Assembly: GCA_947561395.2 (NCBI GenBank)
Contig: OX387187.1
Span: 5,462,976 to 5,526,975, forward strand
Length of the DNA: 64,000 nucleotides
Direction: 5' to 3'
Source of the DNA: Buxus sempervirens
Taxonomy: Eukaryota; Streptophyta; Magnoliopsida; Buxales; Buxaceae
The notes beneath the pieces are model-generated. The model was not told the DNA's origin. It searched no databases and worked only from the letters and a program-made list of their open reading frames with translations. A program made the translations under genes and the position numbers. Positions within the stretch are counted from its first letter, which is position 1. The number at the start of each line of letters is the position of its first letter. Of the stretch, positions 13,176 to 48,948 are shown piece by piece.

Positions 13176-13226
13176 ACGTTTAACACTTAGCCGAATTTCA
13201 AACTTGTGTAATTTGAGGTGTTTACA

Positions 13227-13785
13227 ACTGCCCCTCTTTGTTGGAATTGTAACACAATGAACAACAAAGAGTAGACATACCTCAATTAACACTCTTGCAG
13301 CTCATCCAGTCAAATGTGATTTGCTTTTCGAATAAAATTTTGGAAAATAATTTTGTGAAGATTTAACAAAAAGGCCCTAACTTTAAGGGGGTATTTCTTC
13401 AATTTGTCTTGAATTTCACGGAGCTTTCGTGGCTATGAGGTGAAATTCACGACCAAAATACAAAGAGAAAATTTTGATCTTATCAAATCATGTTTAAAAT
13501 TGATTTACCGAAGTGAAATCCAAAAATGTTTGGCATTTTGAAAAATAATGTAACCGGAATATTATTTTGATTACAAAAAATATATTTGTAACCAAGGAAA
13601 GATTTCGGGTATAAGTAAAAATACCTTGAATCGAAATTCTATTTGGGTTGCCTCCAGCCCGATATTAACTGCGCATGAGAGACGTTAGGTCACTTTTTGA
13701 CTTCGTCTTCTCCGGCAGCCACCTCCCATTTGAACATTCCTCTTCTCCGGTGACCGCCATACATTTCCAGCGACTTTCCTGCAAT
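13227..13785 (-). mobile_element. Interior remnant of element D with polypurine-tract stem-loop
   Basis: On the minus strand this is the stretch leading into D's 3' LTR. It keeps the purine tract CAACAAAGAGGGGCAGT next to the LTR and a stem-loop there: CTCTTTGTTG (13234-13243) pairs with CAACAAAGAG (13262-13271), with an inner stem ATTGT / ACAAT. Further in, at 13415-13440, it has the GGAGCTTTCGTGGCTATGAGG motif found twice in B. The interior stops at the next LTR, so the rest of D is missing. Confidence 0.7.
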
Positions 13786-26180: not shown

Positions 26181-28484
26181 TGTGAGACATGGGAAAAAAT
26201 CACCGGTGTGATCATCCCTCCGTCAACACACGGGCTCAACGCAAAAGTGGGAGAGTCGCCACCATTCATGATTTTGGGGTGAGAATGGACACCAAAGATT
26301 CAAAAGTAGGCAAAAATAGCCAAAAGACAAATTCTAGGATAAAACTAACCATACTTGAAAATCAAATCCAGAGATGGGTAAGGGGATTAGATTATGAACG
26401 GGGGAAGGTGTTAGGCACCCCCATTCATCCACACGAAGTGGTTGCCAAGTGTATGTTCATGCAAAAATAAAGTAAGAAGGCTTGCTAAAAATCATGAGAA
26501 ACCTTGAAAAGGGTCAAATGTATGATATCTTCACATGAGAATCCAAATGAATTTTGGGTTCTCCTCTTATGTCAATATCATTTCTGGAACATTAGAGAGG
26601 TGGAAATCAAAGCACAAGTTGATCAAAACCAAGTTAAATCAAATCCGGGAAGTTTGGTAAAAAGTATGCCATTTGTCTTGAAATCATTCAAATACAATTT
26701 TAAATCAAATCAAACCAAATCAATTTGAAAGATTATAGTAAATAAGGGTCTCCTGCAAAATTTCACTTCATTCCGATGAAAAATCTAGGAGTTATGCTCC
26801 TTTGAAGTTGCTGCTGGGGATTTTTAAAAGTGGTAAGTGGGCAAATTTGGAAAATTGTCTAGGAAAATCCACTACATAAAAGTCCACGAAATTTGGTGTG
26901 ATTGAAGTCTGTATGGCCATATTTCTAGAGAAACTAGCCTCATACAAAAATCCCTTCGGATGTGCCTTGGGTGGTCTCCCGAACAGGCCCCGAAGATCAC
27001 AGATTTACCCAGAAAAGTACAAATGAACAGTTCTGAGTAAATCGTCTACCAATAATTCAAATGGGATCCAAAAATTATGAAACTAACTGGATTTGAAAAT
27101 ATACTCATAAAGGAGTACTCAGAAATAAAAATCACTCGAATCGGACTTAAAACGAACACATGGCGGTCCGTCGAAGTGACAAGTTCTGTACTTGAACCTG
27201 AACTGTCCACTTAACTTCGACAGAGAGGTGTCAAAAATCCGCCAAATAGAAATTTGTGAAATTTGGTGGACATAAACTAAACAGCCTCACCTTTCCCATG
27301 GTTCTGGAATCGCCCCAAAATTCATCCAGATGATGAAGTTATGGGCGTCCGAAGTAGGGGTACAGGTGCTGTCCAGTTAGGCCACTTTTGAAGAAAATCA
27401 AATCCGAAAATTTATAAAGTGTGTGAGATTCGTGTGAGATGAATCCAAAACCTTTGAAAAACATTTAAAAACACTCCAGAATTTGATTGAGGCCATTTAT
27501 TAGAGATTTATCACAATGAATGTAATAAATCCCCAAATGTGAGCCTATTTACCGAAAAAAGTGTAATATGTGTGCAAGAGTGGAAAACCAAGTAAGATTA
27601 ATACAACCACATATCATGCATATAGATTCAACAAAATAGGTTCTAGCATAGCCTAGGGTTCCGTTCCATTATCGTTTCCCTCTGTTCTCTCTCCCCGTTA
27701 AACACGGATCTTCGAAATAATCAAGGGTACTTTGATTATAGAACGGTTTTCAATCATTCAAAAGCCTTATGCTACATGGGTTCTAGCACTAGGGTCAATC
27801 CCCAGTCTCGTTTCTCCTAGATCCGCCTTCACGTTTTACGGCTAGGGGAGTCTTGAGATACTTTGAGCCGGGGAAGGATTTCCACACATACAAACAAGGC
27901 TTTACACTACAGAAAGGTAGAAGAAGAGATCTAGATCTAGGAATGTAAAGACAGAAAATAAAAAGAAAAGTTGAGGCTTACCTGAGTTCTGGAGGCGATT
28001 CCACAGCGGTTTTCTTCTTCTCTTGGAGTTCTTCTTTGCGAGAATTCAAAACAAGAGTTGTGTGCCATTTGCTCAAGGAGGAGGCTCCTATTTATAGGCT
28101 AAGGCTAAGGTCATTGGTAGACACAAATTAATGTCTAGAACCCCCCCAACCTTAACCCTAAGGTTATTTCCGTGATTTCCCCTCATTTAATGAGGGACAT
28201 GATGGTAAAAGTGAAACGCTCTCGGAAAACCCTAATTTTGAGCAAACTTAAGGTATCCGGTATGTCAGACCGGATAAAAAAGGGCCTTAGGGTATCCGGT
28301 ACATGGTACCGGATACACTAAGGCTCACATGTATCCGGTATGAGTATCCGGATACGGGAAAGGGTACTTGTATCCGGCCTGAGTATCCGGATACAGGTAA
28401 AAATTTATTTTATTCAATTTCTGTGCTGGCTTTCCAGGAGATAATGATTTTTGATGATTGTTTGTGCAATTTGGGGTGTCTACA
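26181..28484 (-). repeat. 3' LTR of element B
   Basis: This 2304-base LTR is near-identical to 46646-48948. In element direction it starts at 28484. The U3 carries the dyad array (28253-28395) and a TATA box (TATAAATA, 28089-28096), so U3 is about 420 bases and R-U5 about 1.9 kb. The U5 end includes an internal TGGCGACTC copy (near 26252-26260). Several short frames in it are chance. Confidence 0.9.
28253..28395. promoter_or_regulatory. U3 dyad array, 3' LTR of B (GTATCCGG / CCGGATAC)
   Basis: There are four dyads. Arms are ATCCGGT / ACCGGAT (loop ATGTCAG), GTATCCGGTA / TACCGGATAC (perfect, short loop), and twice GTATCCGG / CCGGATAC with 9-base loops. They lie between the LTR start and its TATA box. 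Confidence 0.8.
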
Positions 28485-28530
28485 ACTGCCCCTCTTTGCG
28501 GGAGCTGCGAAGCAGTGAGTTGCAAAGAGT
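28485..28530 (-). other. Polypurine tract of B within a two-level stem-loop
   Basis: In element direction GCAAAGAGGGGCAGT abuts the 3' LTR and serves as the plus-strand primer. Its first half pairs with an upstream arm: CTCTTTGC at 28492-28499 with GCAAAGAG at 28522-28529. Inside is a second stem, CTGC / GCAG (28505-28508 and 28512-28515), with loop GAA. The same design is seen in A and D. Confidence 0.75.
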
Positions 28531-29057
28531 AGACAAGCCCAAATTGCATTCCCTTGAGCATGATTTGCTCGGTTCAATTCAATTTTGTAGAAAACAATTT
28601 TTGGGTGGAGATTTGCCAAAAAGCCCTCACTTTGAGGGGGCATCTCTCCAAGAGTTCTTAAATTCCACTGAGCTCTCGTGGCTATGAAGTGGATTTTAAG
28701 CCCAAAAATAGGATTTTTGAAAAACTGATTTTTTATCAAACCAAGTTGAAAATTGAGTGGATATCATCCTTTTGACCAGGCACATTCCCCAAGGTTGTCC
28801 CAAAATTCCACAGAGCTCTCGTGGCTGTGAGGTGGATTTCAAGACAACAATAGGATTTTGTGAGAAAATAGAAGTTGTAGCACAATTTTGCTCTTTCCTT
28901 TTCCTTCTCTTTTTTTTTCTTTTCTTTTCTCTTTTTTTTTTCCTTCTTTTTTTTTCTTTTTCTTTTCATTTCCTTTTCTTCTTCTTTTTTTTCATCTCCT
29001 TTTCTTCTCTCTTTTTTCTGTTTTTTTTTCTGCTTTTTGCTCTTTTTTTTTTTTTTG
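28531..29057 (-). other. 3' untranslated part of B with repeated motif and purine-rich tract
   Basis: No gene. A block around CCACNGAGCTCTCGTGGCT(A/G)TGA occurs twice (about 28670-28690 and 28810-28832) and once in D (13415-13440). It includes the dyad CCAC / GTGG around GAGCTC. From about 28890 to 29055 the minus strand is almost pure A/G, which produces a low-complexity Phe-rich frame on the plus strand that is not a gene. Confidence 0.6.
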
Positions 29058-29121
29058 GTATCCGGTATGTATATCCGGATAATCAAGGGTCTGAGGGTAT
29101 CTGGCCTGAGTATCCGGATCC
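29058..29121. promoter_or_regulatory. Two dyads upstream of the PMD gene
   Basis: GTATCCGG / CCGGATA with a 9-base loop is followed by a second, less perfect pair (GGGTATCTGG / CCGGATCC). They lie about 1.25 kb before the PMD start codon but only some tens of bases before its likely 5' untranslated exon, so they may be part of its promoter. Confidence 0.65.
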
Positions 29122-29149
29122 TCCAGGTTTACTTAAGTCGTGCGCGACC

Positions 29150-30371: not shown

Positions 30372-33290
30372 ATGGCTAGGAGTCGTTCCCGAGTTAGAGA
30401 GGAGGCTGACCCTGCTGATCAGCCCTCTAGTTCGCGGGCTCGGACAAAGGCGAGCTCCAGCGCCACCTTGTCTGAGCCATTAGATGTCTCCAGGGAGAGC
30501 TCTGCTGAGGTAGGCTTTCAAAAATTTTCCTTTCTTTCTTTCTTCTATTCTCCTTTCCCACACAACCTTCACACCTTTCTCTTGAATTTTAGCCCGTGGT
30601 TGCACTGGCTCGGGGTCGAGGCAGAGGCAGAGGCAGAGTTCAGGATCAGGCCCCTGAGGGCGAGAGAGGTCGTGGCAGAGGCCGAGGCAGAGCCAGAGAT
30701 ACGGCTCAGGAGGGGGTTGCTGTGGCTCTGGCAGGGGTCTCTGAGGAGTTGAGGGCCTCTGTTCAGGATACAGAGCTCCTCCATGGCTTGGATAGCCACC
30801 CTTCCATGTGCATCAGGGCAGATGTGCCGCTTCCCTATCATTCCTCCCACTTACGAGGTAGCTGGGGCAGATTTAGCGAGTTAGCTCAGTCGCTTTCTCC
30901 GGCACTTAGGCGGGAGTTTGGGAGATGTCATCTGGACCATTTTCTTAGCATCCCATCCTTCAGAGCCGACCGTCCGCTTATTTTTGCCATGATGGAGAGA
31001 TATTTCCCAGAGACGCAGTCATTTCATCTGCCGGACGTGGAGCTGGGGATCCGCCCCTCCGATTTTGTGATGATTACTGGCATTCCTCTGACGGGGCGGA
31101 CCATTGTCTTGGAGCGGCCTTCTGCGGAGGATATCGGACTTCTCTTGGGATATCAGGCCCTGCCACCTGCTGCTTGGGATGGGCGGAGTGGCCGGCTCTC
31201 CATTAGCTGGCTGCGGGAGAGTCTGGCTCGTCATTTTGAGAGGAAGCACGAGACCGTCTCTGTGGAGGATGCAGCCTTTGCACCGATCTACCGACATGTT
31301 TTTCTGTTGATGCTTGGGAGCTGCTTTTTTCCGGAGGATACGACTGGCGTCAGTCCGCTCTTTTTGGACGCCTTGAGAGATTTCCATCAGACCCGCCAGT
31401 TAGCATGGGGTCGGCTCATCTATGGGACCATCCTGGCCGGGTTGTGCCGAGCGGTTCGAGGCCTGGCATCCCCGAGGGGTGATGGAGTCAGCAGCCGATT
31501 CTTCTGGCAGATTCTACAGGTATTGCATTCATCTGTCCGGTTTAATTCCTTAGGCCTTATCTTCTCTTGACTGATTTTTCTTTTGCTAGGTGTTCATGTA
31601 CACATATATGACCTTCTTCCGCCCCTCCCCGGTTCCTGAGGTTGCGGATTTCCCTGTGGCCCTGCGATGGTCGGCCCAGGTTCGAGATGCCGATAGGAGC
31701 CAGCCTCGTACTGCCCGGGTGCACTTAGACCGTGCCCGCCGATCTGATGTAAGCCTTCTATCTTTTCCTTTTCTTTTATTTCCTTTCCTGTATTTTGACT
31801 GTACCTGACAGTTTCCCTTTTTTGCAGCTCCTTCTGTCCCGATTTGATGACGTGGATGTTGGAGTGGCTCGTGAGATGGCGGTACAGGACGCCTTCGATA
31901 GAGATCGACGACGTCAGCCCTACCAGTGCTTCCTCGGGAGGCTTGGTAGGGTGATGTACTTAGGAGAGCGCCTGTACTTCCAGCACACCAGCGCACTTCG
32001 CATCCCCGTCCCTCCTCCTCCTGTGGGTCCCGACACACTCCTCCCGGGCTTTGATGTTGATCAGTTCGATCACTTCCTGGATGCGGAGGGGCTTACAGTA
32101 GCTGGAGATTATGACGAGTGGTTCCAAAGGGTGTCTATTGGATGCTTGATGGATCGACCCACTCGTGCCGGGGTGACTGAGATTGGCGGGATCCGTATCC
32201 GGATCCATGAGGACACAGTAAGTCTTGTACTTTTTATATTTTCATCTTTTCTTCCCTTATGTATTTCTGACCCTGCTTCTGTTCTTGTTGGCAGGTACAC
32301 GAGCTGAATACCATCCGGGACCGGTTTGAGAGTCAGCGGGCCGCGATCGATGATATGATCGCTGAGCACGATGCGGTCGTGGCCCAGCGGGATGCCCGGA
32401 TCAGGGAGCTGGAGGCCCTGGTTGCTGAGCTCCAGGCTAGACAGGTATCTGGCCTTCTTATATTTTCATTTCTTTTATTTTCCTGTTTCTGCTATTCTGA
32501 TATGCTTGTTTGACTTGTGCAGGGCCCGGTCCATGATCAGGATGCCTTGTTTGAGCATGATTTCCTCATTCCTGACCCATCTCCTGTTCGGGCTACTGAT
32601 CCTGTGGACGTCCCAGCTGCTGATCCTGGTGATGCTCTGCCTACTGATCCCATGGCGGATACTCCTGGTGAGTATAACTTTACTTCTTTGGTTTATCCTG
32701 ATATTTCCATTTCTGACTTTTCTGTTGACCAGATATTACAGCTCCTAGTCCTCCTGCTACTGCTGCCGAGCCTTCTGTGGCTGTAGGAGTTGAGGCTGTC
32801 GTGGTTGAGGATTCGGCTGTACCTGAGGCAGCCCCCCTGCCTGTCGAGACTGTCCCTGCAGGCTCTTCATCTCCTATGGTAGTTCCTGACCTTGCTCCTG
32901 AGGTCCTTGGTAAGTTTCTTTAATTCTTCCCTTTTTGGGTTTATCCGGGTACTTCAATGTTCTAATTTTTCTATTGACCCAGATATTTCTGCCCCGGGTC
33001 CTTCCTCTGATGCTGCTGGACCATTTGGATCTGCGGGAGTGGAGGCTACTGTAGCTGCGGGCCCGGTCGAGCCGGTTGCTGCGGAGCCAGAGGCTTCTTC
33101 TGATTCTGTCCCTGTCCCTTCCCCTGATACATCGGATTACTGCATCGAGTACCAGCTTCAGTCCTTCATAGGACGGAGACCACGCTACATGGCGGAGCGT
33201 CTACTGTCCTACTATAGGCGCCGATCATCTCGGGGGAGAGGTCGTAAAGGAGGACGAGGCAGAGGTCGCGGGGATGATCCTGCACAGTAG
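30372..33290 (+). CDS. Plant mobile domain (PMD) protein, 8 exons, carried antisense in element B
   Basis: Exons at 30372-30509, 30593-31519, 31590-31748, 31828-32217, 32295-32444, 32523-32667, 32733-32909 and 32983-33290 all have GT-AG borders and keep one frame to a TAG, giving about 797 residues. The gene looks whole. Order of parts: Arg/Gly-rich tract (RGRGRGRGR in exon 2), PMD domain over most of exons 2-4 (MMERYFPETQSFHLPDVEL, then FLLMLGSCFFPED, then QLAWGRLIYGTILAGLCR), a coiled coil in exon 5 (RIRELEALVAELQARQ), a Pro/Ala/Val-rich tail in exons 6-8 and a second basic RGRGRKGGRGRGRG end. In Arabidopsis the PMD proteins MAIN and MAIL1 act in the nucleus in gene expression and transposon silencing. 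Here a role for the element is inferred. Dyads lie upstream (29058) and downstream (33488). Confidence 0.8.
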
Positions 33291-33487
33291 CAGTAGATTA
33301 GGATTCCTGTTTTTTTCATTATCACTTGTACAAATGAGACTTATATATAAAAGAATATTTTTATTCATTCTCTCTTGTCTTGTACATCTTTTGTTTTCAA
33401 TTTCTTGCAAATATGACATGTAAGCAGGTAAAACAGGTAAAAAATTCGGATTTTTCATCCTTAGTTCATTTTTTTGCTGTTTTTCTT

Positions 33488-33630
33488 TGTATCCGGTCTG
33501 ACATACCGGATACATTGATTGGTCTTTGTATCCGGTATGTCATACCGGATACTCATGCCATCCTTTGTATCCGGTATACGTATCCGGATATTAATAAAGC
33601 CTTTGTATCCGGTCTGAGTTACCGGATACG
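33488..33630. promoter_or_regulatory. Four dyads between the two antisense genes, next to a TATA box
   Basis: Arms are TGTATCCGGT / ACCGGATACA (loop CTGACAT), GTATCCGGTAT / ATACCGGATA (loop GTC), GTATCCGG / CCGGATA and GTATCCGGT / ACCGGATAC. Each opens with TTTGTATCC. The array ends 11 bases before the TATA box of the downstream gene and about 200 bases after the PMD gene stop. Confidence 0.8.
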
Positions 33631-33641
33631 TTAAAAGATGC

Positions 33642-33648
33642 TATAAAT
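33642..33648 (+). promoter_or_regulatory. TATA box (TATAAAT) of the DUF7745-like gene
   Basis: TATAAAT in the context GCTATAAATGC lies 111 bases before the ATG at 33759 and directly after the dyad array. Spacing suits a transcription start near 33670. Confidence 0.6.
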
Positions 33649-33758
33649 GCAACCTGCCTCGGGATTTGAGCATTTTTTACGAGTTTTTGAGTTTAGAAAC
33701 CCCCTTTTTCGCCTTTTTCTTCCTCCTCTTGAGTTCTAGCTTGCTCCCATCACATCCA

Positions 33759-35451
33759 ATGGAATCCGGATCATTTTCTGCCCCATTATTGTCTGTCCAC
33801 ACTGCCTCCCCTGCAAAACAACCTTTTAGATCAAAACCCCCAAATCTCACTAGGTACAATCCTGTAGATTCCTTTTACACAAGGTGGGTTAACTCTATGA
33901 CCCTAGATGAGGAGAGGAGATGGGGTACTACCAATCTAGGCCATACCCTGCTCATTCCCAAGGTTCCCTTCAGGTGGGAGATTATAGAGGCCATGATTGG
34001 TCATTGGGTTCCTGATCTCAATTTGTTCCGTTTTGGGACCCATGAGATGACCCCAACCATTGAGGAGGTGGAAACTATCTTGGGCTTGAGGTTCGATGAG
34101 AAGGTGGTGAATCCACCTCTTAGGCCCAGTTACAAGAAGGAAGCTTCTACTTTTTTGGGCATAGGGAAGAAGGACTTGGGGGATTCTGACACCCTTTTGA
34201 CCCTATCTAAGGCTTTTTTGACTGAGAAGCTTTTGAGGGGGGAAGATAAGGAGGCCCGATTCAATGCGTTGACCCTGATAGTGGTCAACCAGTTGCTTTT
34301 CCCACGGGATGATGATGAGGTGGACTTGGCCTTGATTTCAGTGATATGCTAGGTTAGGGAGCGGGAGAGGTTGGCCCCCATGATTTTAGCTGGAATATAT
34401 CAAGCTTTGACTGACTGCTACAACAGGAAGTCAAAACGTTTCCTAGCATGTGCCCAGATCCTGCAGGTAAAAATTTTTTCTTTTTTTTTCTTGCTTTTTG
34501 GCTTTCTTTTTGCCTTTTTTGCTTTTTTTTTTTTTTTTTACAATATACTGAAATATCCCTTCTCCTTTGCAGCTTTGGTTACTTGATCATTTGAGCCAGA
34601 TTGAAGAGATTAATCGACACTTCTTCCCGAGTCTAAAAGTCCCCTTGTTGATGAGCAACAGGGGGTGCCCCGATATTCCAGGGGGCAAACAGGGCTGGTT
34701 CACTTTCTTGGGCTCACTTCAGGAGGACCAGGTGAGATGGCCTGGCACTTATCAGCCCAACGCAGCGACCATGATTAGCTTCCGTGACCGCAACTTTTTG
34801 ATCCTAGCGGGCCTGAAGCATGCAGTGTTGTATCTTCCTCTACGGGTCCTTCGTCAGTTCCGTGCGACCCAGGGGATTATCATCCCATGTGGATATGAGG
34901 ATCGTCTTGGGCCCCTTTCTATGAAGCTGAATGCCTGGTTGATGAAGGAGTGGTCCTATGTCCGCTTCATGCATGGTCCAGTCTTCTCGGAAGCCCATGT
35001 GAAGGATTATCTCTTCTAAATCAAGGAACAGATACAGACTCAGGCCCCGGTACCCGAAGATCCTCCTGTAGTCTTGGCTCCCACCTATGAGGACATTCTA
35101 GAGTCTGAGCGGGCTTCTCATAAGCGGCTTCAGCAGATATGGGTGCGGGAGGCCCAGGAGCTCAGGATACAAGGCGCTTATCTGGAGAGGCAGCTTGAGG
35201 AGCAGATCTCACGCCGTATTGCCGTGGAAGAGAAGCTGGAGGAGCAGAGGCAGGCCCGTTGCTTCGAGGTCCGTATGATGCGGCAGAAGTACCAGGATAC
35301 TTTGGCCAACCTTAGGAATATGAGGATCAAGCAGGCCCTTTCAGATGAGGTCATTTCCTTCCTGAGTGATCCCGCTGCAGAGGGGGCTTCAGGAGTTATT
35401 GCAGCTCAGGCAGCTCGGATTCGGGAGCTTGAGGAGCGGCTAGGAGACTAG
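33759..35451 (+). pseudogene. DUF7745-like / PMD-related gene carried antisense in element B, broken
   Basis: The ATG at 33759 (MESGSFSAP) opens a frame with FRWEIIEAMIGHWVPDLNLF and FGTHEMTPTIEEVETILGL. This is the pattern of plant proteins grouped as DUF7745, related in look to the plant mobile domain. One GT-AG intron lies at about 34467-34572. The later part reads LWLLDHLSQIEEINRHFFP and LGPLSMKLNAWLMKEW, then ends in a long coiled coil (LERQLEEQISRRIAVEEKLEEQ). Family members often end in such a coil. The gene has about two breaks and is probably inactive. It sits between a dyad array with TATA box and the 3' end of pol, which runs toward it on the other strand. Function is unknown. The domain name is from recall of sequence style. 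Confidence 0.6.
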
Positions 35452-36368: not shown

Positions 36369-39300
36369 TCAAGGGAAATACCTTTTTACCGCATCAGAGT
36401 TAACGGGCTCAAGAAAATCTGCCCCATCCATTTCTGCTAAGATGAGTGCTCCCCCTGATAGGACTTTATTGACGACATATGGGCCTTCCCAATTGGGCTT
36501 GAACTTACCACGAGGGTCTTCCAAAAATGGTAGAATTTTCTTTAGCACTAAGTTTCCTTCTTGGAAAGTTCTGGGCCTCACTTTCTTATTGTAAGCCCGA
36601 GCCATTCTCTTCTGGTACAACTGTCCATGGCAAAGCGCTTTCAACCGCTTTTCTTCTATCAGGTTAAGTTGATCATGTCTCGACTGGACCCATTCGGCTT
36701 CTTCTAGTTCTGCTTCCATGAGCACTCGGAGTGAGGGGATCTCTACTTCCACGGGCAAGACTGCTTCCATCCCATAGACTAGGGAGTATGGGGTTGCCCC
36801 AGTTGAAGTCCGGATCGAGGCTCTGTAGGCATGTAGAGCAAGTGGTAGCATTTCATGCCAATATTTGTAACTTACTACCATCTTCTGAATGATTTTCTTT
36901 ATATTCTTGTTGGCTGCTTCTACTGCCCCATTCATCTTTGGCCTATACGGAGCTGACTTGTGGTGGGTGATCTGAAACTGCTCACACATTTTCTTCATGT
37001 CCTTGTTCTTAATATTTGAAGCGTTGTCTGATACTATGGCACTTGGCAGTCCATAGCGACAAATGATATTGTGCTTCAAAAATTTAATAACATGGTTGCT
37101 TGTGATATTTGCATATGATGCTGCTTCCACCCATTTAGTGAAGTAATCAATCGCCACCAGGATGAATCTGTGCGCGTTCGATGCCTTAGGGGAGATCATG
37201 CCAATAACATCTATGCCCCACATAGAGAAGGGTCAGGGTGATGTCATGTTGTGCAGCTCACCCGGGGGTGCATGCTTATTATCTGCATAGATTTGGCATT
37301 GATGGCACCTCCTGACATGTGTACAGCAATCGTGCTCCATGGTCATCCAGTAGTATCCCAGCCTTAGGATCTTCTTAGCCAGCATGTGCCCACTCATATG
37401 GGGCCCACAGACTCCTCCATGTACCGTCTCGATCAACCTTTCCGATTCAGCCTTGGCTACACATCTTAGCAGAATGTCGTTATGTGACCTCTTGTACACA
37501 TGTCCACCACTTAGCAAAAACTGACCCGCCAATCTCTGTATTGTCCTCTTCTCAGTAGCAGTGGCATTTTCTGGCAAACTCTGATTGTTCAAGAAATTTT
37601 TGATATCTTGAAACCATGGTGTTTCTTCTTCTGGTGCTCCCTCTAGAACGAGACAGTAAGCCGGTTCATCTCTAACCTCAATTTCCAGCGGTCTGATGTC
37701 TACTCCTTCTGGTATGCTGACCATTGAAGCCAAGGTTGCTAGAGCATCTGCAAACTGATTCTTGGCCCTTGGCATATAGTTGAAGGAAATTCGAGTGAAA
37801 TTTGTGCTTATTTCTTCCAAATACTGGTGATAGGGGATCAATTTGTGATCCTTGGTTTTCCACTCCCCAGTTGTTTGGAAGATGATAAGACTCGAATCCC
37901 CGTATACGTCAAGTTCCTCTACTCCATGATCCATGGCTGCTTGCAATCCAATTATGCATGCTTCATATTCTGCTATGTTATTGGTGCACTGGAATCTCAG
38001 CTTTACTGCAATCGGGATGTGTGAACCATCTGGTTTAACCAAGACTGCCCCTATTCCTTTCCCATTCATATTGGCGGCCCCATCAAAGAACATCTGCCAA
38101 GAACCCTCACTGTCCTCCTCTTCAGTGTACAGAATTGCCTCATCTGGGAAGTTGGTCTTCAAGGGTTGATATTCTGGCAAAGGATGTGCAGCCAGGTGAT
38201 CAGCTATGGCTTGACCCTTGATCGCCTTCTGGGTGATGTATGTGAGGTCAAACTCAGACAGTAGCAGTTGCCACTTTGCCGTCCTGCCAGTCAGTGCCGG
38301 TTTCTCAAATAAATATTTCAGCGGGTCCATCCGGGATATCAATAGTGTGGAGTGACTAAGGAAGTAATGCCTTAGCCTCTGAGTGGCCCACACTAGAGCA
38401 CAACAAGTCTTTTCCAATGGTGAGTACTTGGCTTCATATTCCGTGAATTTTTTACTCAGATAGTAAATGGCCCTTTCCTTTCTACCAGTCTCATCATGCT
38501 GCCCCAAGACACATCCCATTGACGTTTCCAACACTGACAAGTACAGGATCAGTGGTCTTCCTGGAGTTGGTGGCACTAGCACAGGTGGGTTCAGCAAATA
38601 CCTCTTTATTGTGTCAAATGCCTGTTGGCAGTCCTCATTCCAGACCGTCGGGTTATCTTTCCTCAAAAGTTTGAAAATTGGTTCACAGATAGCAGTGAGC
38701 TGTGCTATGAACCGGCTTATGTATTGAATTCTTCCGAGAAAGCCCCTGACCTCCCTCTCGGTTCTGGGTGCTGGCATTTCAATTATGGCCTTGGCTTTAG
38801 CCGGGTCAATTTCGATTCCTCTTCGGCTCACTATAAACCCCAGTAACTTCCCTGATGTAGCCCCAAAGACGCACTTAGCCGGGTTAAGCCGTAGACTGTA
38901 CTTCCTGAGCCGATCAAACACTTTCTTCAGATTGATCAAGTGGTCTTCCTCTTTGCATGATTTGGCAATCATATCGTCCACGTAGACCTCCATCTCCTTA
39001 TGGATCATGTCATGAAATAGGGCAGTCCTGGCCCGCTGGTATGTTGCCCCAGCGTTTTTAAGCCCAAACGGCATGACTGTATAGTGGAATGTGCCCCAAG
39101 GTGTGATAAATGCTGTTTTCTCTTGATCCTCCTTAGCCATCTTGATCTGATTGTACCCCGAGAAACCATCCATGAAGGAAAACAGGCTATGTACCGCAGT
39201 ATTATCGACAAGAATGTCGATGTGTGGAAGCGGAAAATCGTCCTTTGGGCTTGTCCTGTTTAAGTCTCTATAATCCACGCACATTCGGACTTTTCCGTCC

Positions 39301-39660
39301 TTCTTGGGTACCGGCACTATATTTGCGAGCCATTCTGGGTATGTAGAGACTGCCAGAAATCCGGCTTGGAACTGTTTGACCACTTCGTCCTTGACCTTCA
39401 GAGTCCACTCAGGTTTCAATCTTCTCAGCTTCTGCTTAATCGTCTTAACCCCTGGCAAAATTGGCAACTTGTGCACCACCATGTCAGTGTCCAACCCCGG
39501 CATGTCTCGATATGACCAAGCGAACACATCTTTGTAGTCTGCCAAGAACTGTGACATTTCATTTTTCTGCACATCAGACAAGCATGACCCGATTTTCACA
39601 ATTTTTGGGTCATCTTTGGTCCCAAGGTTTATGGATATGGTCTCCTCAATATTAGGTTGG
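36369..39660 (-). pseudogene. pol of element B: RT, two RNase H domains, zinc finger, integrase
   Basis: In coding order: reverse transcriptase about 39350-38800 (PVPKKDGKVRMCVDYRDLN, MPFGLKNAGATYQ and EVYVDDMIAKS with the YVDD centre near 38980), the standard gypsy RNase H about 38650-38180 (ALVWATQRLRHYF), a second plant/archaeal-type RNase H about 38100-37690 (FDGAANMNGKGIGAVLV, NNIAEYEACIIGL, AKNQFADALATLASM), the HHCC zinc finger about 37400-37270, and the integrase core about 37215-36850 (IDYFTKWVEAASY, IVSDNASN, MNGAVEAANKNI). A second RNase H is diagnostic of the Tat lineage. The enzymes copy the element RNA and insert the DNA. The region is nearly open, with about one break. Confidence 0.9.
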
Positions 39661-40740
39661 ACCCCTTTTCATGACGTTCCAATTGGTATTCAATTTCTTT
39701 TGGAACGTCTTCTTCTTCGACCTCGGTCTCTTCTTCGACCCCCATGAGGTCAAAGTCGAGCTCAAGGTCGAAGTCATATTCAACCTGGTCCAATTCGGTC
39801 TGATTATATGGTTCATAAGTGGTTTGGACCTTTTTGAAAAATTTAAATTTTTTAGAAAAAATAGAAAAATCTTTTTGGGTTTTTTGCGGGCCTTCTAAAC
39901 ATAATTCCCCTGAAGACGAAGGCCCATTAGAACCTTCAGGGAAATGACATTCCACTATTGGAGTTTTTTTTTGAAGCCGCGTCAGTTTGCCACACAGACG
40001 CTGCTTCAAAGGTAAGGGGAGTTTCCTCTCAATTGTTCATTACAAAATTTTGGGGAGCAGGGGAAATAGGGAAAGCATGCTCCTCAAGCCCAGCATCCGA
40101 TGCCATCATCACCGGGTGGGTACTGCCCTTTTCTGCTACGGGGCCCAATCCAGAAATGACCTCTTCCGGAATCTTTACTGCGGCCCAGTCAATAAACGGC
40201 AGTTCCATGTCTGCCCCTGTCTTTTCGCCCTCAGTCATGGCGAAGAAACCACCAACATCTTCAGAAAAGTCCACCTGCTGCTCGGGCTGTGGTCCAGGCC
40301 CATCCACTGCTCCCAGTATTGGAGATGGTTTATAGGGTTGTAGGGCCGAAACAAAAGGCTTTTGGAATGGGTTGATGTTTCGGTATGGGGGCTTGGACTG
40401 GTCCATGGGAGGAGAAATTTGGATTATATAGGAGGGTTTTGGAAAGTTCACCCTTAGATGCGGGAGTTTTCCTCTGCTTCTGCTCTCTCCTTCTTCATAT
40501 TTCATTCTTCTCCAGCCTCTGGGCTTGAAGCCCAACCCTACCTTGGGGATCAGTTTCTTAGCCGTGATTGGCTCCACCATCCCCTGCAGATTGATCCCCA
40601 GGCCTTTCCCTGGGTGAAAGTGGTATTTCTCCATCACTTTTTTAACCATTTTTTTCTGCAGTGGTCCCCTTTTCCTTATTTTTCTCACACCCCCCAGGTA
40701 TGTAATTGACCGCCTCAAATTGGAATGAGTGGAATGCAAT
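39630..40740 (-). pseudogene. Protease-RT connecting region of element B with a G-patch-like motif
   Basis: The region between protease and RT reads as two overlapping-frame stretches. The first holds YHFHPGKGLGINLQGM and a second Gly-rich LIPKVGLGFKPRGW, resembling the G-patch-like motif seen in this place in Tat-type polyproteins. The second is very acidic (EEETEVEEEDVPKEIE). No enzymatic role can be assigned. In related Ogre elements an intron is known near this border; I cannot show one here. Confidence 0.6.
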
Positions 40741-42246
40741 CTTTTCGACAGTTAGGTCCACATTGATCAAGGGTACATCAGGTGACACGATGGGCGGCAC
40801 CAAGTTTTCGGCTAGGACTGTTATCACCCTTTGCCCTCTTATGTACTTCACTCTTTGGTGGAGCGTGGATGGTATTGCCCTAGCCGAGTGTATCCACAGC
40901 CTTCCTAGGAGCAGATTGAATGCTGCGGGTATATCCATCACTTCAAATGTGATGTTAAAGATATTCGGCCCAATTGTGACCGGCAGTTCAATCTCCCCTA
41001 GGGAGTGGGTCTTGGAGCTATCAAAAGCCCTTACTATCCGCCCATTTTGTTTGATCCTTGACTGGTCCAGACCCAGCTTGGTAAAAGTGATTAACGGGCA
41101 AACGTTTAATGCCGACCCGTTGTCAATTAAAACCCGTGCAACCATGCAGCCCTTACAAAGCACAGTGATGTGCAAAGGGTCCACATGATAACACCCACCT
41201 GGGCTGATCTCACCCTCTGAGAAACTTATCACATTATGTGACAAGATTTGACCAACCATTTTGCCAAGCTGGTCTGGATCAATGGTCTGGGATACGTGTG
41301 CACTCTGTAGCACCCTTAACAATGCATCCCTATGCTTTTCGGAATTCAGCAAAAGGCCTAGTATTGAAATCTGGGCCGGGACCTTGTTTAGCTGATCCAC
41401 AAGATTAAATTCACTCTTTTTTATTATTTTTATGAGGTCGGCTGCCTCATTTTCTGCACCCTGGGGGGTGTCTTCTCCTACTTTATTTTTTCCTTTTTGT
41501 TTTCTTTTTTCATTTTCTTTTTCTGTTTCTGTCTCCTTCTCCTTCTCTTCACCCCCTGCACATCTCCCTGACCTCGTCATGAGGTTCACCTCCTCCTGGT
41601 TCTGGTCCTTGACCACTGGAACCGTAGCCGTGATTCCCTCGCTATAGTTCCATGGTACAACGGCCTCTGAATAGGCTAATTTAGGGATGTTAACCACTAG
41701 TGGCTGGAGTTTGGACCGGGATGTATGGGCCGGTTTAGGGATAGTATCGGATGGCTGCACATTTACAACCAAGGGTTGAAGTTTGGAATTTGTGGGGACA
41801 GAAGAAGTGATGGAAGCAGTGGTGGGGTCAAGATTGATGACCAGTGGAGCCTTAGACGGCTTGGATGGTGAGCAAATGGATGGACTGCAATTGAAGACCA
41901 ATGGGGGCCTTGCAGTATTTATCTGGGCCATCAGAGAAGAGACCCGGTTTAAGGAGGAGCTTATGTCCTCAGCAGCAAGATTATTTTTTTGGGAGACCAT
42001 GTTGATCTCCTCTTCGTCCTCCTCTGGGAAAAATCGGACCTGGACTGTAGTCCTCACAGGTGCTATAAGCTGAGATGGGTCAAAGGCCCTTCTCGTGGTG
42101 GATATGGCAGTGATGGAATTGGATGGGCCTGCCCCATTGTGGTAAGGAAGAGGGTTCTGCCCAATATCATTCCCGGACGGGGCCGGTGCAGCAGTGTTGA
42201 ACACCAAGGCCTTCTGGTCCAACAAATCCTGGACTGCATGCTTCAA
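40642..42246 (-). pseudogene. gag C-terminal part and aspartic protease of element B
   Basis: This long frame has a Pro/Ser/Asn-rich spacer, a Glu/Lys-rich stretch, then the retropepsin-like domain: VARVLIDNGSALNVCPL with the D-N-G-S active-site wording usual in Tat/Ogre elements, and later FNLLLGRLWIHSARAIPS. The protease cuts the polyprotein. It overlaps gag upstream and the connecting region downstream. Confidence 0.85.
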
Positions 42247-43769
42247 TACCCAGCAGTTATCAGTAGAATGCCCCGTGCACCCATGTGGAAATCACAGGTG
42301 ACCGATGTGTCAAAATTTCTCCCCTTCGGGGCATTTGGGTTAGGCTCCTTCAGAGTCAAGTATTCCCCTTTCAGTAGGGTTGGCAGTAGTTGGGACAGAG
42401 ATATCGGGAGAGGAGTGAAGACTCGGTTTTTCCTTGCTGCGAACCAGGCATCCCGCTCCTCCTTAGTAAAGGTCCTCCTTGTGTTAGCTGGCACAGAGGG
42501 AGAGAAGTTGACATTTAGCGAGGTCTGGTACGACTGCTGGGCCTGCTGGGCCTGTTGGGGTGCAGAGATGTTGACGTGAAGTGGCTTCTTGGCTGGAGGA
42601 GCCTGGACTAGGTTCACCTCCCCTTCTTTTCGGGCCCCCGTCTTTTTAAATTCGGCCCCTTTCTTTTGGGCCATGGAGGCGGAGGAATCAGACTGCCCAG
42701 TTAGAGTAGAGTAGTCTATCAGCCTTCCTGACCTGACCCCTTCCTCAATCCGGTCCGCCACTTGTACCAGGGCTGCAAAGTTGGTGGTGATCTGACCCAC
42801 CAAATGGTTGTAAAAGGGCTGCCCTAGTGTGCCCATAAATGTGGAGATCATCTCCAGCTCTTGCATAGGTGGTCTGACCTGGGAGGCGGCCTCTCTCCAC
42901 CTCTTGGCGTATTGCCGTACTGGCTCATCCTTGCCCTTAGTCATCCTCATCATGTCGTACCGGTCTGGCACAATCTCCGAGTTGAACTTGTATTAGTCCA
43001 GGAAAGCGTCGGCTAGGTCCTTCCACCTCCTGATCCTTCCATGGTCTACTGTAGCGAACCACCGAAGGGCTGACCCGGTCAGACTCCTCTGGAAGAGCTG
43101 GATCAGTATGCCATCGTCCCGGCCAAATTGGCATAGGGCCCCGCAGTATAGTTTCAAATGGCTTAATGGGCAGCCCGTGCCATCAAATTTGTCGAAGTCT
43201 GGGCACCTGAACTTAGCCGGTAGACAGACGTCCGGGTACATGCACAGGTCTTCGAAGGTGGTGCCTGTATGGCTGCCTCCCCCCTTCACTTCCTTCAGCT
43301 CTGCCTGGATCCTCTCTATCCTCAGCAGCATTTTCTTTTCCATCTCATCCCTAGCCTTTTCTTTTTCCAGCTCTTTCTCAGACTCTACTGTATTTTCCCT
43401 GATCAGAATGGGCTCAGGGACTGGTTCAGAAATGGGCTCAGGCATGGGCTGAGCCGGAGGCGGTATGTAGGCCTGAGGTGGTGGTGCCTGATGGGAGGTA
43501 GAGGCCTGGTTTTGGGCTTGGGCCTGTTGGGCCTGCGCCGCCAGTAAGTCCCCCAGCATTTTGGCCAGACCGGCCACTTGCTCCTGCAGTTGAGTAAAGT
43601 CCTGAGCAGGGACAGTAGCTTGGGCTTGGTTCTCTTCAGTATTCATTGCTCTTGCTTTGGATCTGGTCACGGGAGCAATGACTGCAAATAAGTGCACCTG
43701 GGTTGAAAGTAAATGTACCTGAATAAGAAAAACAAAGACACAAGTCAGCTTCCATTTGATTTGAAACAC
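42243..43769 (-). pseudogene. gag of element B
   Basis: Starts from ATG at 43769 or, more likely, the in-frame MNTEENQAQATV about 120 bases on. A Gln/Pro-rich N-terminal part and a charged coiled stretch (ESEKELEKEKARDEMEKKM) lead to the gag domain: CPDFDKFDGTGCPLSHLKLY, FQRSLTGSALRWFATV, KDEPVRQYAKRWREAASQV and ISTFMGTLGQPFYNH. The order and wording match the gags of A and C. The capsid protein packages the element RNA in the cytoplasm. About one break. Confidence 0.85.
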
Positions 43770-43872
43770 ACCCCTATATATGTAAACCAGTAGGTTAGGT
43801 GAACACCAATCCAGATTTTTTTCTTTTCTTTTTTTTTGTTTTTTTTTATTTTTGTTTTTTTGATTTTGTGTT

Positions 43873-44785
43873 GAAATATTCTAGGGCTTCCAAGGGTCCC
43901 AACATTTTTTGATTTGATTGATAAAAATAACCAACCAAGGTTTTCATGGAATATTCTAGGGCTTCCAAGGGTCCCAAATTTTTTTTGATTTGATTGATAA
44001 AAATAACCAACCAGGGTTTTCATGGAATATTCCAGGGCTTCCAAGGGTCCCAAATTTTTTTTGATTTGATTGATAAAAATAATCAACCAGGGTTTTCATG
44101 GAATATTCTAGGGCTTCCAAGGGTCCCAATTTGTTTTTTTTTTGATTTGATTGATAAAAATAACCAACCAAGGTTTTCATGGAATATTCTAGGGCTTCCA
44201 AGGGTCCCAATTTTTTTTTTGATTTGATTGATAAAAATAACCAACCAAGGTTTTCATGGAATATTCTAGGGCTTCCAAGGGTCCCAAATTTTTGATTTGA
44301 TTGATAAAAATAACCAACCAAAGGTTTCTTGGAATATTCTAGGGCTTCCAAGTATCCCACAAATGTTTTGATTTGATTGATAAAAATAACCAACCAAAGG
44401 TTTCTTGGAATATTCTAGGGCTTCCAAGTATCCCACAAATGTTTTGATTTGATTGATAAAAATAACCAACCAAAGGTTTCTTGGAATATTCTAGGGCTTC
44501 CAAGTATCCCACAAATGTTTTGATTTGATTGATAAAAATAACCAACCAGGGTTTTCATGGAATATTCTAGGGCTTCCAAGGGTCCCAAAATTTTTTGATT
44601 TGATTGATAAAAATAACCAACCAAAGGTTTTCATGGAATATTCTAGGGCTTCCAAGGGTCCCAAATTTTTTGATTTGATTGATAAAAATAACCAACCAAA
44701 GGTTTTCATGGAATATTCTAGGGCTTCCAAGGGTCCCAAATTTTTGATTTGATTGATAAAAATAACCAACCAAAGGTTTTTTTCC
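43873..44785 (-). repeat. Minisatellite in the leader of B, about 12 units of 70-77 bases
   Basis: Units share GATTTGATTGATAAAAATAA, CCAACCAAGGTTTTC, ATGGAATATTCTAGGGC and TTCCAAGGGTCCCAAA. A middle group of three has TTCTTGG and AAGTATCCCACAAATG instead, showing sub-block spread. Small dyads (AACC / GGTT, GGG / CCC, TGGAA / TTCCA) recur. The array ends about 100 bases before the gag ATG. Open frames across it come from its period and are not genes. Confidence 0.9.
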
Positions 44786-46624
44786 TTTTCTGAATTTTCT
44801 CAGTTTTCAAGTTCAAAAGCTTGATTGACACATGTTTGAGTTGAGTTGGTGTCAAAAAATATGACACCTTGGTTTCCTCTTTGATTTTCAAACTTAGGTT
44901 AAATCCTGAAAGAATATTTCATTTTATTCTTTTTGTTTTTTTTTTTTGTATTTTTTTTTTGATTTTGTGTTTTTGGGAACATTTCTTATGTTCTTTTTGG
45001 GGTGCCTAAGGATTATCCACAGTGTTTTAGGCATTTTATTCTGAAAATTTGGGCTGAACAGCCAATTTGTGCATTTTTTGAACGTATCCGGTATAATATA
45101 CCGGATAAGAATATGCCTTATTGTATCCGGTCACCCTAACCGGATACACGCATGTCTTTGTATCCGGAAATACATACCGGATATGCATAGAGTTGTTATT
45201 AACCGGCCTGAGTTGCCGGTTATTGCCGGAATGGCCCTTTTTGACTCATTTTTTCCCCCGATTAGTTTTTTTTCATTCCCAATTGATGTTCACCTTAATT
45301 TGACCTTCAAAACTTGCCCCAAATTGGGCTTGGACATCATACTTGCAAAATTCCCCAAATTTAGGAAAAGAACATGGCTTTACCTTACCACCTTGTATTA
45401 CCTTCATTCAATATAGTATTCACATTATACCTTGGCCTGTAAAACATGCAAACGGCCTTCCCACATTTACACCCAATTCCCCAAACGCAATTGTGTGCTT
45501 TTAGCTGAAAACGTGTTTCTCCACCTTCAAGCGTATGGTTTTTGGGTTTTGGCTTAATTGGCAACTTAGAACTCAAGTCTAGCGATGCCCGGAATCGAAT
45601 CACAGATCCCATTGTCATCATATCATTGACCCAAATTCTAAGGTAAATGTTTTCACTTTCGCTTTCCGAAGTCACGACCTCGGTGCGCCAAGCTACACAC
45701 ATTCATGGTTCAACTTCCTAATAGGTATAGGGTAGGCTGTGCAAATTGTTTCAAGTGCTCAAGTGCAATTTTAAATTGTGGTAACATTCACAACGTCCCA
45801 GCCCCTTGCCACTCTTTTTCGTAGCCATGCATTCAATTTTAAGCCAAGGTACATATGACAAAAATAATGAAGCTAAATACAAGCAAGCAAGCACCAAAAC
45901 AACTAAATATGCACAAAAAAATTACATGCCCAAAAAGTGGTATACAAAACATGTTATTTGTACAAACAACAATTAAATCATGTAAGCATGCTTGAAACCC
46001 AAAAGCATTCCTAAAATTCCATATTTCATGCTCTTTTTCATGCTCCAAGTGTACCATTTCTACCCAAATTGAAGCCTAAAATTTTAACACTACTTGGCAT
46101 GGTTCAAAAGTGTTTCAATGAGGTCAAACATGCTTAAAAACCCCCAAATATACACTGAAATTTCCAGATTTTTTTTTTCAATTGGATGCTCAAGTGACAT
46201 GGTTTTATGCCCAAATCCAAGCCTAAAACCCAGAAGCTAACAATATGACATAAAAAGCTTTTAGCTTGGGAAACATATGCTTGAAAATCCCCAAAATTCC
46301 CACTAAGCATTTCAGATTTTTTTTCATTGTTTTCATGCTCAACTTATGTCATTCCATACCCCCAAGTTCAAATCATGGCATAAAACAACCATTAAGCACA
46401 AAAAGCATTATTCATGGGATGGCATAACAACTTAAATCAGAGCATGTCATCACAAAACACATCCAAATCATGTTTCAAAATAGGCTTTGGATCCATACAA
46501 ATTTCTAAGCATCCTAATCTGATTTGAAATATAACAATATGCACAAATGAAGTAAACAAAATAGCAAGCCTTCAAAAGTAGAGAAAAGCATGAACAAATA
46601 CACAAAAATGGCTTAAATCCACAA
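44786..46624 (-). other. Leader of element B
   Basis: Untranslated sequence between primer site and minisatellite, AT-rich, with no supported gene. It holds the dyad array at 45084-45222. A 105-codon minus frame at 45385-45702 has no recognisable domain and is probably chance. Confidence 0.6.
45084..45222. promoter_or_regulatory. Four dyads in the leader of B
   Basis: Arms are GTATCCGGTAT / ATACCGGATA (loop AAT), TGTATCCGGT / ACCGGATACA (loop CACCCTA), GTATCCGG / CCGGATA, and a variant TTAACCGG / CCGGTTA. The last shows a paired change in the outer arm bases relative to the others. Confidence 0.75.
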
Positions 46625-46643
46625 GTCCCCAGCAGAGTCGCCA
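46625..46643 (-). other. Primer binding site of element B
   Basis: On the minus strand TGGCGACTCTGCTGGGGAC begins two bases after the 5' LTR end. It is identical to the sites of A and C. Confidence 0.85.
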
Positions 46644-46645
46644 GT

Positions 46646-48948
46646 TGTGAGACATGGGAAAAATCACCGGCGTGATCATCCCTCCGTCAACACACGGGCT
46701 CAACGCAAAAGTGGGAGAGTCGCCACCATTCATGATTTTGGGGTGAGAATGGACACCAAAGATTCAAAAGTAGGCAAAAATAGCCAAAAGACAAATTCTA
46801 GGATAAAACTAACCCTACTTGAAAATCAAATCCAGAGATGGGTAAGGGGATTAGATTATGAACGGGGGAAGGTGTTAGGCACCCCCATTCATCCACACGA
46901 AGTGGTTGCCAAGTGTATGTTCATGCAAAAATAAAGTAAGAAGGCTTGCTAAAAATCATGAGAAACCTTGAAAAGGGTCAAATGTATGATATCTTCACAT
47001 GAGAATCCAAATGAATTTTGGGTTCTCCTCTTATGTCAATATCATTTCTGGAACATTAGAGAGGTGGAAATCAAAGCACAAGTTGATCAAAACCAAGTTA
47101 AATCAAATCCGGGAAGTTTGGTAAAAAGTATGCCATTTGTCTTGAAATCATTCAAATACAATTTTAAATCAAATCAAACCAAATCCATTTGAAAGATTAT
47201 AGTAAATAAGGGTCTCCTGCAAAATTTCACTTCATTCCGATGAAAAATCTAGGAGTTATGCTCCTTTGAAGTTGCTGCTGGGGATTTTTAAAAGTGGTAA
47301 GTGGGCAACTTTGGAAAATTATCTAGGAAAATCCACTAAATAAAAGTCCACGAAATTTGGTGTAATTGAAGTCTGTATGGCCATCTTTCCAGAGAAACTA
47401 GCCTCATAAAAAAAATCCCTTCGGATGTGCCTTGGGTGGTCTCCCGAACAGGCCCCGAAGATCACAGATTTACCCAGAAAAGTACAAATGAACAGTTCTG
47501 AGTAAATCGTCTACCAATAATTCAAATGGGATCCAAAAATTATGAAACCAACTGGATTTGAAAATATAATCATAAAGGAGTACTCAGAAATAAAAATCAC
47601 TCGAATCGGACTTAAAACGAACACATGGCGGTCCGTCGAAGTGACAAGTTCTGTACTTGAACCTGAACTGTCCACTTAACTTCGACAGAGAGGTGTCAAA
47701 AATCCGCTAAATAGAAATTTGTGAAATTTGGTGGACATAAACTAGACAGCCTCACCTTTCCCATGGTTTTGGAATTGCCCCAAAATTCATCCGGATGATG
47801 AAGTTATGGGCGTCCGAAGTAGGGGTACAGGTGCTGTCCAGTTAGGCCACTTTTGAAGAAAATCAAATCCGAAAATTTATAAAGTGTGTGAGATTCGTGT
47901 GAGATGAATCCAAAACCTTTGAAAAACATTTAAAAACACTCCAGAATTTGATTGAGGCCATTTATTAGAGATTTATCACAATGAATGTAATAAATCCCCA
48001 AATGTGAGCCTATTTACCAAAAAAAGTGTAATATGTGTGCAAGAGTGGAAAACCAAGTAAGATTAATACAACCACATATCATGCATATAGATTCAAAAAA
48101 ATAGGTTCTAGCATAGCCTAGGGTTCCGTTCCATTATCGTTTCCCTCTGTTCTCTCTCCCCGTTAAACACGGATCTTCGAAATAATCAAGGGTACTTTGA
48201 TTATAGAACGGTTTTCAATCATTCAAAAGCCTTATGCTACATGGGTTCTAGCACTAGGGTCAATCCCCAGTCTCGTTTCTCCTAGATCCGCCTTTACGTT
48301 TTACGGCTAGGGGAGTCTTGAGATACTTTGAGCCGGGGAAGGATTTCCACACATACAAACAAGGCTTTACACTACAGAAAGGTAGAAGAAGAGATCTAGA
48401 TCTAGGAATGTAAAGACAGAAAATAAAAAGAAAAGTTGAGGCTTACCTGAGTTCTGGAGGCGATTTCACAGCGGTTTTCTTCTTCTCTTGGAGTTCTTCT
48501 TTGCGAGAATTCAAAACAAGAGTTGTGTGCCATTTGCTCAAGGAGGAGGCTCCTATTTATAGGCAAAGGCTAAGGTCATTGGTAGACACAAATTAATGTC
48601 TAGAACCCCCCAACCTTAACCCTAAGGTTATTTCCGCGATTTCCCCTCATTTAATGAGGGACATGATGGTAAAAGTGAAAAGCTCTCGGAAAACCCTAAT
48701 TTTGAGCAAACTTAAGGTATCTGGTATGTCAGACCGGATAAAAAAGGGCCTTAGGGTATCCGGTACATGGTACCGGATACACTAAGGCTCACATGTATCC
48801 GGTATGAGTATCTGGATACGGGAAAGGGTACTTGTATCCGGCCTGAGTATCCAGATACAGGTAAAAATTTATTTTCTTCAATTTCTGTGCTGGCTTTCCA
48901 GGAGATAATGATTTTTGATGATTGTTTGTGCAATTTGGGGTGTCTACA
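46646..48948 (-). repeat. 5' LTR of element B
   Basis: This 2303-base LTR is near-identical to 26181-28484. In element direction it starts at 48948. The TATA box is at 48554-48561. The internal TGGCGACTC copy is at 46717-46725, 82 bases from the primer site. It drives transcription of gag-pol toward lower coordinates. Confidence 0.9.
48717..48859. promoter_or_regulatory. U3 dyad array, 5' LTR of B
   Basis: Same four dyads as at 28253-28395, upstream of the active-position TATA box. A few arm bases differ from the other LTR and are not compensated, consistent with recent decay after insertion. Confidence 0.75.

Follow-up and report, generated by a model that had tools for sequence, protein, structure and literature searches.

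Why should one short inverted repeat stand at the promoters of both strands of a retrotransposon? The question is raised by a 64,000-nucleotide stretch of Buxus sempervirens DNA (GenBank assembly GCA_947561395.2, contig OX387187.1, positions 5,462,976 to 5,526,975; hereafter the window), which holds element B, a Ty3/gypsy retrotransposon with long terminal repeats (LTRs). Its gag-pol region is on the minus strand. The stretch that separates pol from the 3′ LTR has two genes on the plus strand, the only extra ones recognised in B: gene 1 encodes a plant mobile domain (PMD) and gene 2 a PMD-like one. Arrays of the same dyad are found in both LTRs, ahead of both antisense genes and in the untranslated gag leader (Table 1). 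We lean towards reading them as operators of a family-specific dimeric DNA-binding protein that is probably encoded by the element itself, the PMD proteins being candidate readers, and we set out below the sequence comparisons on which this reading rests.

Arrays of a fixed dyad in element B

The dyad unit of B is GTATCCG-N11-CGGATAC, 25 bp long and repeated with a period of mostly 39 bp. A count of 7 bp half-sites (GTAWCCG and CGGWTAC, at most one mismatch each, gaps of 0–30) over the 64 kb window gave 32 pairs, with a gap of exactly 11 in 26 of them; 18 of these 26 are inside B, where they form five arrays. A first-pass annotation of this DNA had noted about 18 dyads in five clusters and had placed two of them in the LTR U3 regions upstream of the TATA box, one ahead of the likely first exon of the PMD gene, one just before the TATA box of the second antisense gene and one in the gag leader. 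All five were recovered at these places; the pre-gene-1 array has the LTR on one side and the likely first exon on the other. The fixed 25 bp form, the 39 bp period and the arrays of the same geometry in two other LTRs of the window, A and A′, are additions to that annotation.

Dinucleotide-shuffled versions of B contain on average 0.03 gap-11 sites, with a maximum of 1 in 100 shuffles, against 18 in B itself. When dyads are counted in a loose form (arms of 7, loops of 3–10), B has 28 loci compared with 12.7 ± 3.4 in 200 shuffles (maximum 24), or 22 compared with 7.3 ± 2.7 (maximum 17) if the arms have at least 40% GC, and the largest group within 200 bp comprises five dyads in B and at most three in the shuffles. 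The loose count alone is moderately above chance; it is the fixed form and the clustering that set the arrays apart. A motif-free scan of the whole window for periodic 25 bp dyads returned only the LTR A array and four of the five in B, the one with two units (29058) being missed, and found no array in 20 resampled windows. At other dyad lengths, the scan also returned A′, a further element named C and two unrelated repeats near 56995 and 58809.

The source genome (676.5 Mb) contains 30,971 matches to the exact-arm pattern with gaps of 0–30, compared with 47 for the reversed pattern. Among the matches listed (51 distinct sites of the 30,971), the gap is 11 in 49 cases and 24 in two, which span neighbouring units; all 51 sites are clustered, the neighbour being known for two of them from a list allowing three mismatches. 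A similarity search with gene 2 gave 5651 candidates, the best 150 places of which are all 96–100% identical and mostly free of inner stops: the B family has amplified recently. The gene 2 array is present, whole or in part, in all 12 other B copies read (of at least 150 places), and the U3, pre-gene-1 and gene 2 arrays are all present in nine of the 12; L279, L280 and L285 are rearranged or have parts missing within 7.5 kb around gene 2. Neither random scatter in other copies, nor absence from the antisense promoters, nor equal abundance in shuffled sequence was seen. A B-related LTR in one of these loci (L279:4749–4890; 96% in the TATA region) keeps the arms with other loops, and its last unit is GTATCCGGCCTGAGTTGCCGGATAC.

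The arms of the B dyads are constrained. Between the B arrays, identity is 0.84–0.97 in the arms, 0.32–0.54 in the loops and 0.23–0.38 in the 14 bp spacers or flanks. Diversity was measured on copies picked by protein similarity, with eight loci picked for a perfect dyad left out: 39 loci for gene 2, 10 for U3 and 8 for the pre-gene-1 array gave 28, 11 and 9 distinct sequences, respectively, including the window. The mean non-CpG diversity is 0.015 in the arms (116 columns), 0.105 in the loops and spacers (170) and 0.066 in the flanks (559). The arms are thus about seven-fold less diverse than the loops and spacers, a difference reached by none of 20,000 permutations.

Concerted differences between families

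The arrays of LTR A and LTR A′ have the geometry of those in B and different half-sites. The A-type unit has 2690 + 2570 matches in the genome at up to three mismatches and the A′-type unit 809 + 791, with none for the reversed control of the former and none for the control of the latter. At an A-type locus, L267, the U3 and leader arrays both have CCGA where B has CCGG, and the last leader unit, TTAACCGACCTGAGTTGTCAGTTAA, corresponds to TTAACCGGCCTGAGTTGCCGGTTAT of B. Locus L266, in the same region (G000:C1:11606300–11628600), has an A-type U3 array with pieces of protease and gag no more than about 1.2 kb further on; no PMD gene was found in the 9.9 kb read there, and the locus is probably a derivative, deleted or non-autonomous, in which the array is retained.

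A more distant family of the same genome, X, was met by chance beside the B copy of L285, through a gene 2 that is 58% identical to that of B. Its dyad is of the type TGCCCGTA..TACGGGCA, with a period of 27–28 bp, and this other dyad is found at all four places occupied in B. One X element (C1:12194309–12213782, assigned to X by its dyads and its gene 2 promoter) has four units in U3, four before gene 1, five at the gene 2 promoter and five in the leader, all of X type, and CCG-N11-CGG is exact in 15 of the 18. The search for its leader array started from the offset that B predicts (L288); the first stretch had none, and the next 901 bases contained it. Gene 1 of this element is 53% identical to that of B over 164 aligned positions (the 58% for gene 2 comes from another X copy), and DNA alignment of the B and X promoter flanks exceeds shuffles only at the start of the LTR.

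The pattern of the X gene 2 promoter array, TGCCCGTAA..TTACGG, has 746 + 793 genome matches and the control none. Of the 100 rows listed, 96 were typed, two reverse-strand duplicates and two odd-gap rows being left out. Among the typed rows, 18 sites are of internal type: four have partners at both LTR distances (5.2–5.4 kb and 14.1–14.4 kb), which resemble those in B, two are partnered only at the 3′ LTR, three only at the 5′ LTR and nine at neither. In six of these nine, another site lies at a distance of 83 bp; these six seem to represent a separate subfamily.

We compared the bases flanking CCG in 12 arrays of four families; geometry served to place the units, some of those in A′ being judged by eye. 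The nearest array belongs to the same family for all 12, a result reached by 10 of 200,000 label permutations. The array distance is 0.392 within families and 0.662 between them, and it is no smaller between arrays that share a place but not a family (0.672). For B and X alone, the exact test gives 2/70, the smallest value possible. The sites at the promoters therefore differ in concert between families. Array type C was excluded from these tests, with one known array per element; the C LTRs carry three-unit arrays of related dyads (TGATCCGGC and GTAACCGGC; window positions 18357–18459 and 54512–54614).

A proposed family-specific reader and its alternatives

How could one sequence serve a sense promoter, two antisense promoters and a leader? 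A dimer would bind the two inverted half-sites, with their CCG cores 11 bp apart, and several dimers would lie side by side on each array. One protein per family would act at the LTR promoter, both antisense gene promoters and the leader array, and would control the genomic RNA and its own synthesis together. The reader and all of the operators of a family would turn over together while the dimer geometry stays. We place the readers with the elements because the proteins of the host are equal for all families, yet there are four half-sites with one geometry and joint differences; autoregulation is suggested because genes 1 and 2, besides which no extra gene was recognised in B, sit under arrays. 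The reader would most likely be one or both of the PMD-fold antisense proteins, each of which has coiled-coil-like stretches (judged by eye) that would suit a dimer, and we infer that it would activate or un-silence the element, although it may instead act by feedback repression. The first-pass annotation had proposed operators for a common DNA-binding protein, possibly the PMD protein of B or a partner: the shared cis-element at sense and antisense promoters has stood up, with constrained arms and concerted family differences, and the PMD protein stays a candidate. A fuller version is put forward as tentative, and it may well not hold in full: the PMD fold of retrotransposons could be a sequence-specific dimeric DNA-binding module, a self-encoded regulator of the LTR and of its own antisense genes through private operators, so that paralogous readers that differ in specificity would coexist within one genome and each family would activate or un-silence only itself.

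Several observations weigh against operators read by such a protein. Scans of pieces of genes 1 and 2 (some short gene 1 exons were left out) detected no known DNA-binding domain, and Sireviruses, which have comparable boxes, are not known to carry PMD genes; if they lack them, such boxes need no PMD reader. The leader arrays have no visible promoter beside them, and the C arrays are about 1.2 kb downstream, not upstream, of a TATA-like sequence (by eye). The pre-gene units of A′ are weak and partly set by eye; between X arrays the arms agree at just 0.69–0.78, and three of the 18 X units lack an exact CCG-N11-CGG. An earlier family test with 11 arrays, without the X leader, gave 4 of 100,000 permutations, and 76 of 100,000 when A′ was removed as well. 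In the window copy, the 5′ LTR arms show CpG decay like the rest of the LTR, which is expected of a silenced copy. Finally, one spacer is common to the pre-gene-1 and U3 arrays of B at 10 of 14 positions, and part of the sameness of the B arrays may stem from copying.

Such copying, by template switching or gene conversion of neutral tandem repeats within the element, could in principle produce concerted evolution with no reader at all, and the family-specific period (39 or 27–28 bp) would fit it as well as the partly shared spacer. However, loops and spacers would then travel with the arms, whereas the B spacers agree at near chance level and the loops of different X arrays at 0.25–0.35. Nor would copying be expected to give the lower diversity of the arms, or to keep the arrays at the same places in two families whose genes are 53–58% identical, and we regard it as improbable. 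About as improbable, or slightly more so, is that the palindromes act as RNA stems from which small RNAs arise or by which they are triggered, or which serve as signals in the RNA. In maize Sireviruses, small RNAs do map in excess to clusters of palindromes (Bousios 2016, according to the passages of PMC10760457 on these clusters), but in B the arm sequence itself is conserved, and not pairing alone; the gene 2 array is upstream of the TATA box and would fall outside the gene 2 mRNA, and selection for a silencing trigger at every promoter is unlikely. That CCGG-rich arrays recruit methylation or repressors, to the benefit of the host or for restraint of the element, seems hardly credible. In the window copy, CpG to TpG/CpA changes set three arms of the 5′ LTR U3 array apart from the 3′ LTR, which suggests methylation; yet among B copies the CpG columns vary less in the arms than in the flanks (0.039 compared with 0.172), and the X half-sites contain CCCGTA and no CCGG.

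Host transcription factors deserve more weight, although we consider them unlikely. At all of its promoters, each family would have come to use a host factor, or one paralogue from a factor family, that recognises CCG-centred half-sites. The A-type half-sites contain CCGAC, the DREB-binding core, and those of A′ resemble MYB cores; both likenesses count for a host factor. Moreover, the cis-regulatory regions of transposable elements often consist of palindromic repeats in arrays (as described in passages of PMC10760457), and the ATCCGG half-site recurs in a Sirevirus box from Citrus, AATCCGGCTWRCCGGATT (PMC2829016, Table 3). On the other hand, the same host proteins face four half-sites, each common to two to four dispersed arrays, with CCG-N11-CGG kept throughout, and unrelated recruited factors would not be expected to preserve an 11 bp gap.

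For gene 1, the protein database gave three PMD relatives among the 8000 best candidates, which were those scored and may have been crowded by words rich in arginine and glycine (RG); for gene 2, there was none among 477 candidates. No PDB relatives were found for the two protein pieces tried, and an AlphaFold model of the gene 1 domain from four sequences had a mean pLDDT (predicted local distance difference test) of 46, too poor to use, and was discarded. Nine stretches of viral contigs matched a pattern for PMD relatives and none was confirmed. The dyad pattern matched 110 stretches of viral contigs and at least 117 of genome contigs, with only viral and prokaryote records; among the 160 stretches listed, one has two separate matches.

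Private operators that change in concert offer a direct test, in which the reader would be recognised as the protein that binds B dyads and leaves X dyads unbound. Should this be a PMD protein, a function could be assigned to the PMD fold, and plant LTR retrotransposons would have a regulator of their own, self-encoded and confined to the family, with the logic of the VANC proteins discussed below. This could also explain how related families amplify side by side in one genome.

Related systems and the surroundings of the arrays

The nearest system in anatomy is the set of RM boxes of Sireviruses (PMC2829016, in its passages on the boxes). As in B, these are CGG/CCG palindromes in many copies, located in the LTR a little before the TATA box and, a second time, ahead of an accessory gene (ENV in Sireviruses), in element-specific versions. 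Sireviruses are Ty1/copia elements, whereas B, with reverse transcriptase (RT) and RNase H ahead of integrase on the minus strand, has the Ty3/gypsy order, and in B it is the antisense PMD genes and the leader that carry the additional arrays. The Sirevirus signature CGG..CCG (as given in PMC2829016) is contained in the CCGG..CCGG arms of B, while A, A′ and X have only CCG..CGG. The fixed 11 bp gap, the fixed period, and the measured constraint within families and concerted difference between them distinguish the present arrays from these boxes.

In logic, the nearest system is the anti-silencing one of VANDAL and VANC, from Arabidopsis Mutator-like element (MULE) transposons, in which the element's own protein binds the motif and removes methylation. 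VANC is not known to be a PMD protein, and VANDALs are DNA transposons; B, with gag, RT, RNase H, an integrase core and LTRs, is not a MULE with VANA and VANC. The passages of PMC5735166 and PMC10398659 that concern the motifs describe short tandem arrays in non-coding regions that differ between related families of one genome, as here, and a self-encoded protein that reads them, the counterpart of which would be our proposed reader. The parallel with VANC had been drawn in the first-pass annotation, and it is apt for the evolution of the sites and not for their form: the VANDAL motifs are YAGTATTAY or AGTTGTCC/AC, and those of VANC21 are in one orientation, with no dyads (PMC5735166 and PMC10398659, in the same passages). 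The annotation had also invoked the Arabidopsis PMD proteins MAIN and MAIL1, which, like PP7L, are linked to a promoter motif, much as proposed here (passages of PMC7156037 and PMC9899485). In this case, the parallel fails at the motif, since the DOWN motif, CATGCAGTTT at the MORC1 promoter (as given in PMC9899485), has no dyad and is unlike the half-sites of B and its relatives when compared by eye. These host proteins affect silencing and gene expression, and their binding to DNA or chromatin is stated as not known in the passages concerned (PMC7156037, PMC9899485).

The set of RT, RNase H, a second RNase H-like domain, integrase and an antisense PMD gene, as expected of Ogre/Tat elements, is complete in B. 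A plant mobile domain is reported in 57% of Ogre elements (PMC6317226, in part), and Retand has antisense TRP28 open reading frames (ORFs) with predicted DNA binding, about half of its elements having tandem repeats between pol and the 3′ LTR (PMC11963269, in part). A shared operator at LTR and antisense promoters is not described in the passages of either paper that treat these features (PMC6317226, PMC11963269). VANC has been raised as a model for the extra ORFs of LTR retrotransposons, without operator data in the passages concerned (PMC12844716). Among the literature matches listed, no title or abstract opening describes operators shared by LTR and antisense PMD promoters, subscription literature lying mostly outside these matches.

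Table 1. Features of the window discussed in the text (window coordinates).
Feature	Position	Strand	Remarks
Element B	26181–48948	−	Ty3/gypsy LTR retrotransposon with long LTRs; ends set by eye from LTR alignment and TGTAGACACC start
3′ LTR of B	26181–28483	−	
5′ LTR of B	46646–48948	−	
gag-pol region of B	36369–43880	−	
Gene 1 of B (ATG to stop)	30372–33290	+	Antisense to gag-pol; plant mobile domain PF10536, E = 7.1e-14
Gene 2 of B	33759–35451	+	Antisense; DUF7745/PMD-like, E = 1.4e-10 / 3.1e-6
Dyad array, 3′ LTR U3	28253–28394		4 units of 25 bp, 39 bp period
Dyad array between 3′ LTR and gene 1	29058–29121		2 units
Dyad array, gene 2 promoter	33489–33629		4 units
Dyad array, untranslated gag leader	45084–45223		4 units, the last a TTAACCGGC variant
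Dyad array, 5′ LTR U3	48717–48858		4 units
TATA box, 3′ LTR	28090–28096	−	U3 array starts 157 positions upstream
TATA box, 5′ LTR	48555–48561	−	U3 array starts 156 positions upstream
TATA box, gene 2	33642–33648	+	12 bp after end of gene 2 array
LTR A array	2161–2341		Variant GTATCCGA..TCGGATAC; same period and same side of TATA box (1991) as in B
LTR A′ U3 array	12900–13211		TAACCGAAAT..ATTTCGGTTA; the rule gives 5 units, and two set by eye make 7; TATA at 12701
A′ array just outside LTR, gene 1 side	13550–13651		A′ type; 2 weak units by rule, 3 with one by eye

The LTRs of B, 2.3 kb each, are 28 substitutions apart in 2295 alignment columns. A profile scan of its pol gave RVT_1, RNase H, RVT_3 and rve, that is RT, two RNase H-type domains and an integrase core; the Pfam matches in B are PF00078, PF17917, PF13456, PF00665 and PF10536. 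By eye, gene 1 has eight exons with one open frame in each, one coiled-coil-like exon and RG-rich ends; an extra 5′ leader exon is likely. Gene 2 has a heptad-like C-terminus (by eye) and, in the window copy, two in-frame stops; its first exon has longer open frames in many other copies of B.

A G-patch domain (PF01585, E = 2.5e-7) is found in the pol region of B, on the minus strand at 40029–40751 of the window. The gag leader of B also contains a 76 bp tandem repeat in about 12 copies (window 43875–44780), in the place of which the X element has another short repeat (L288). As judged by eye between 9600 and 54919, the insertions are nested: the gag of C is interrupted by B, A′ sequence adjoins C, and the second C LTR is interrupted at about 54919 by another LTR (TGTAAGCACC).

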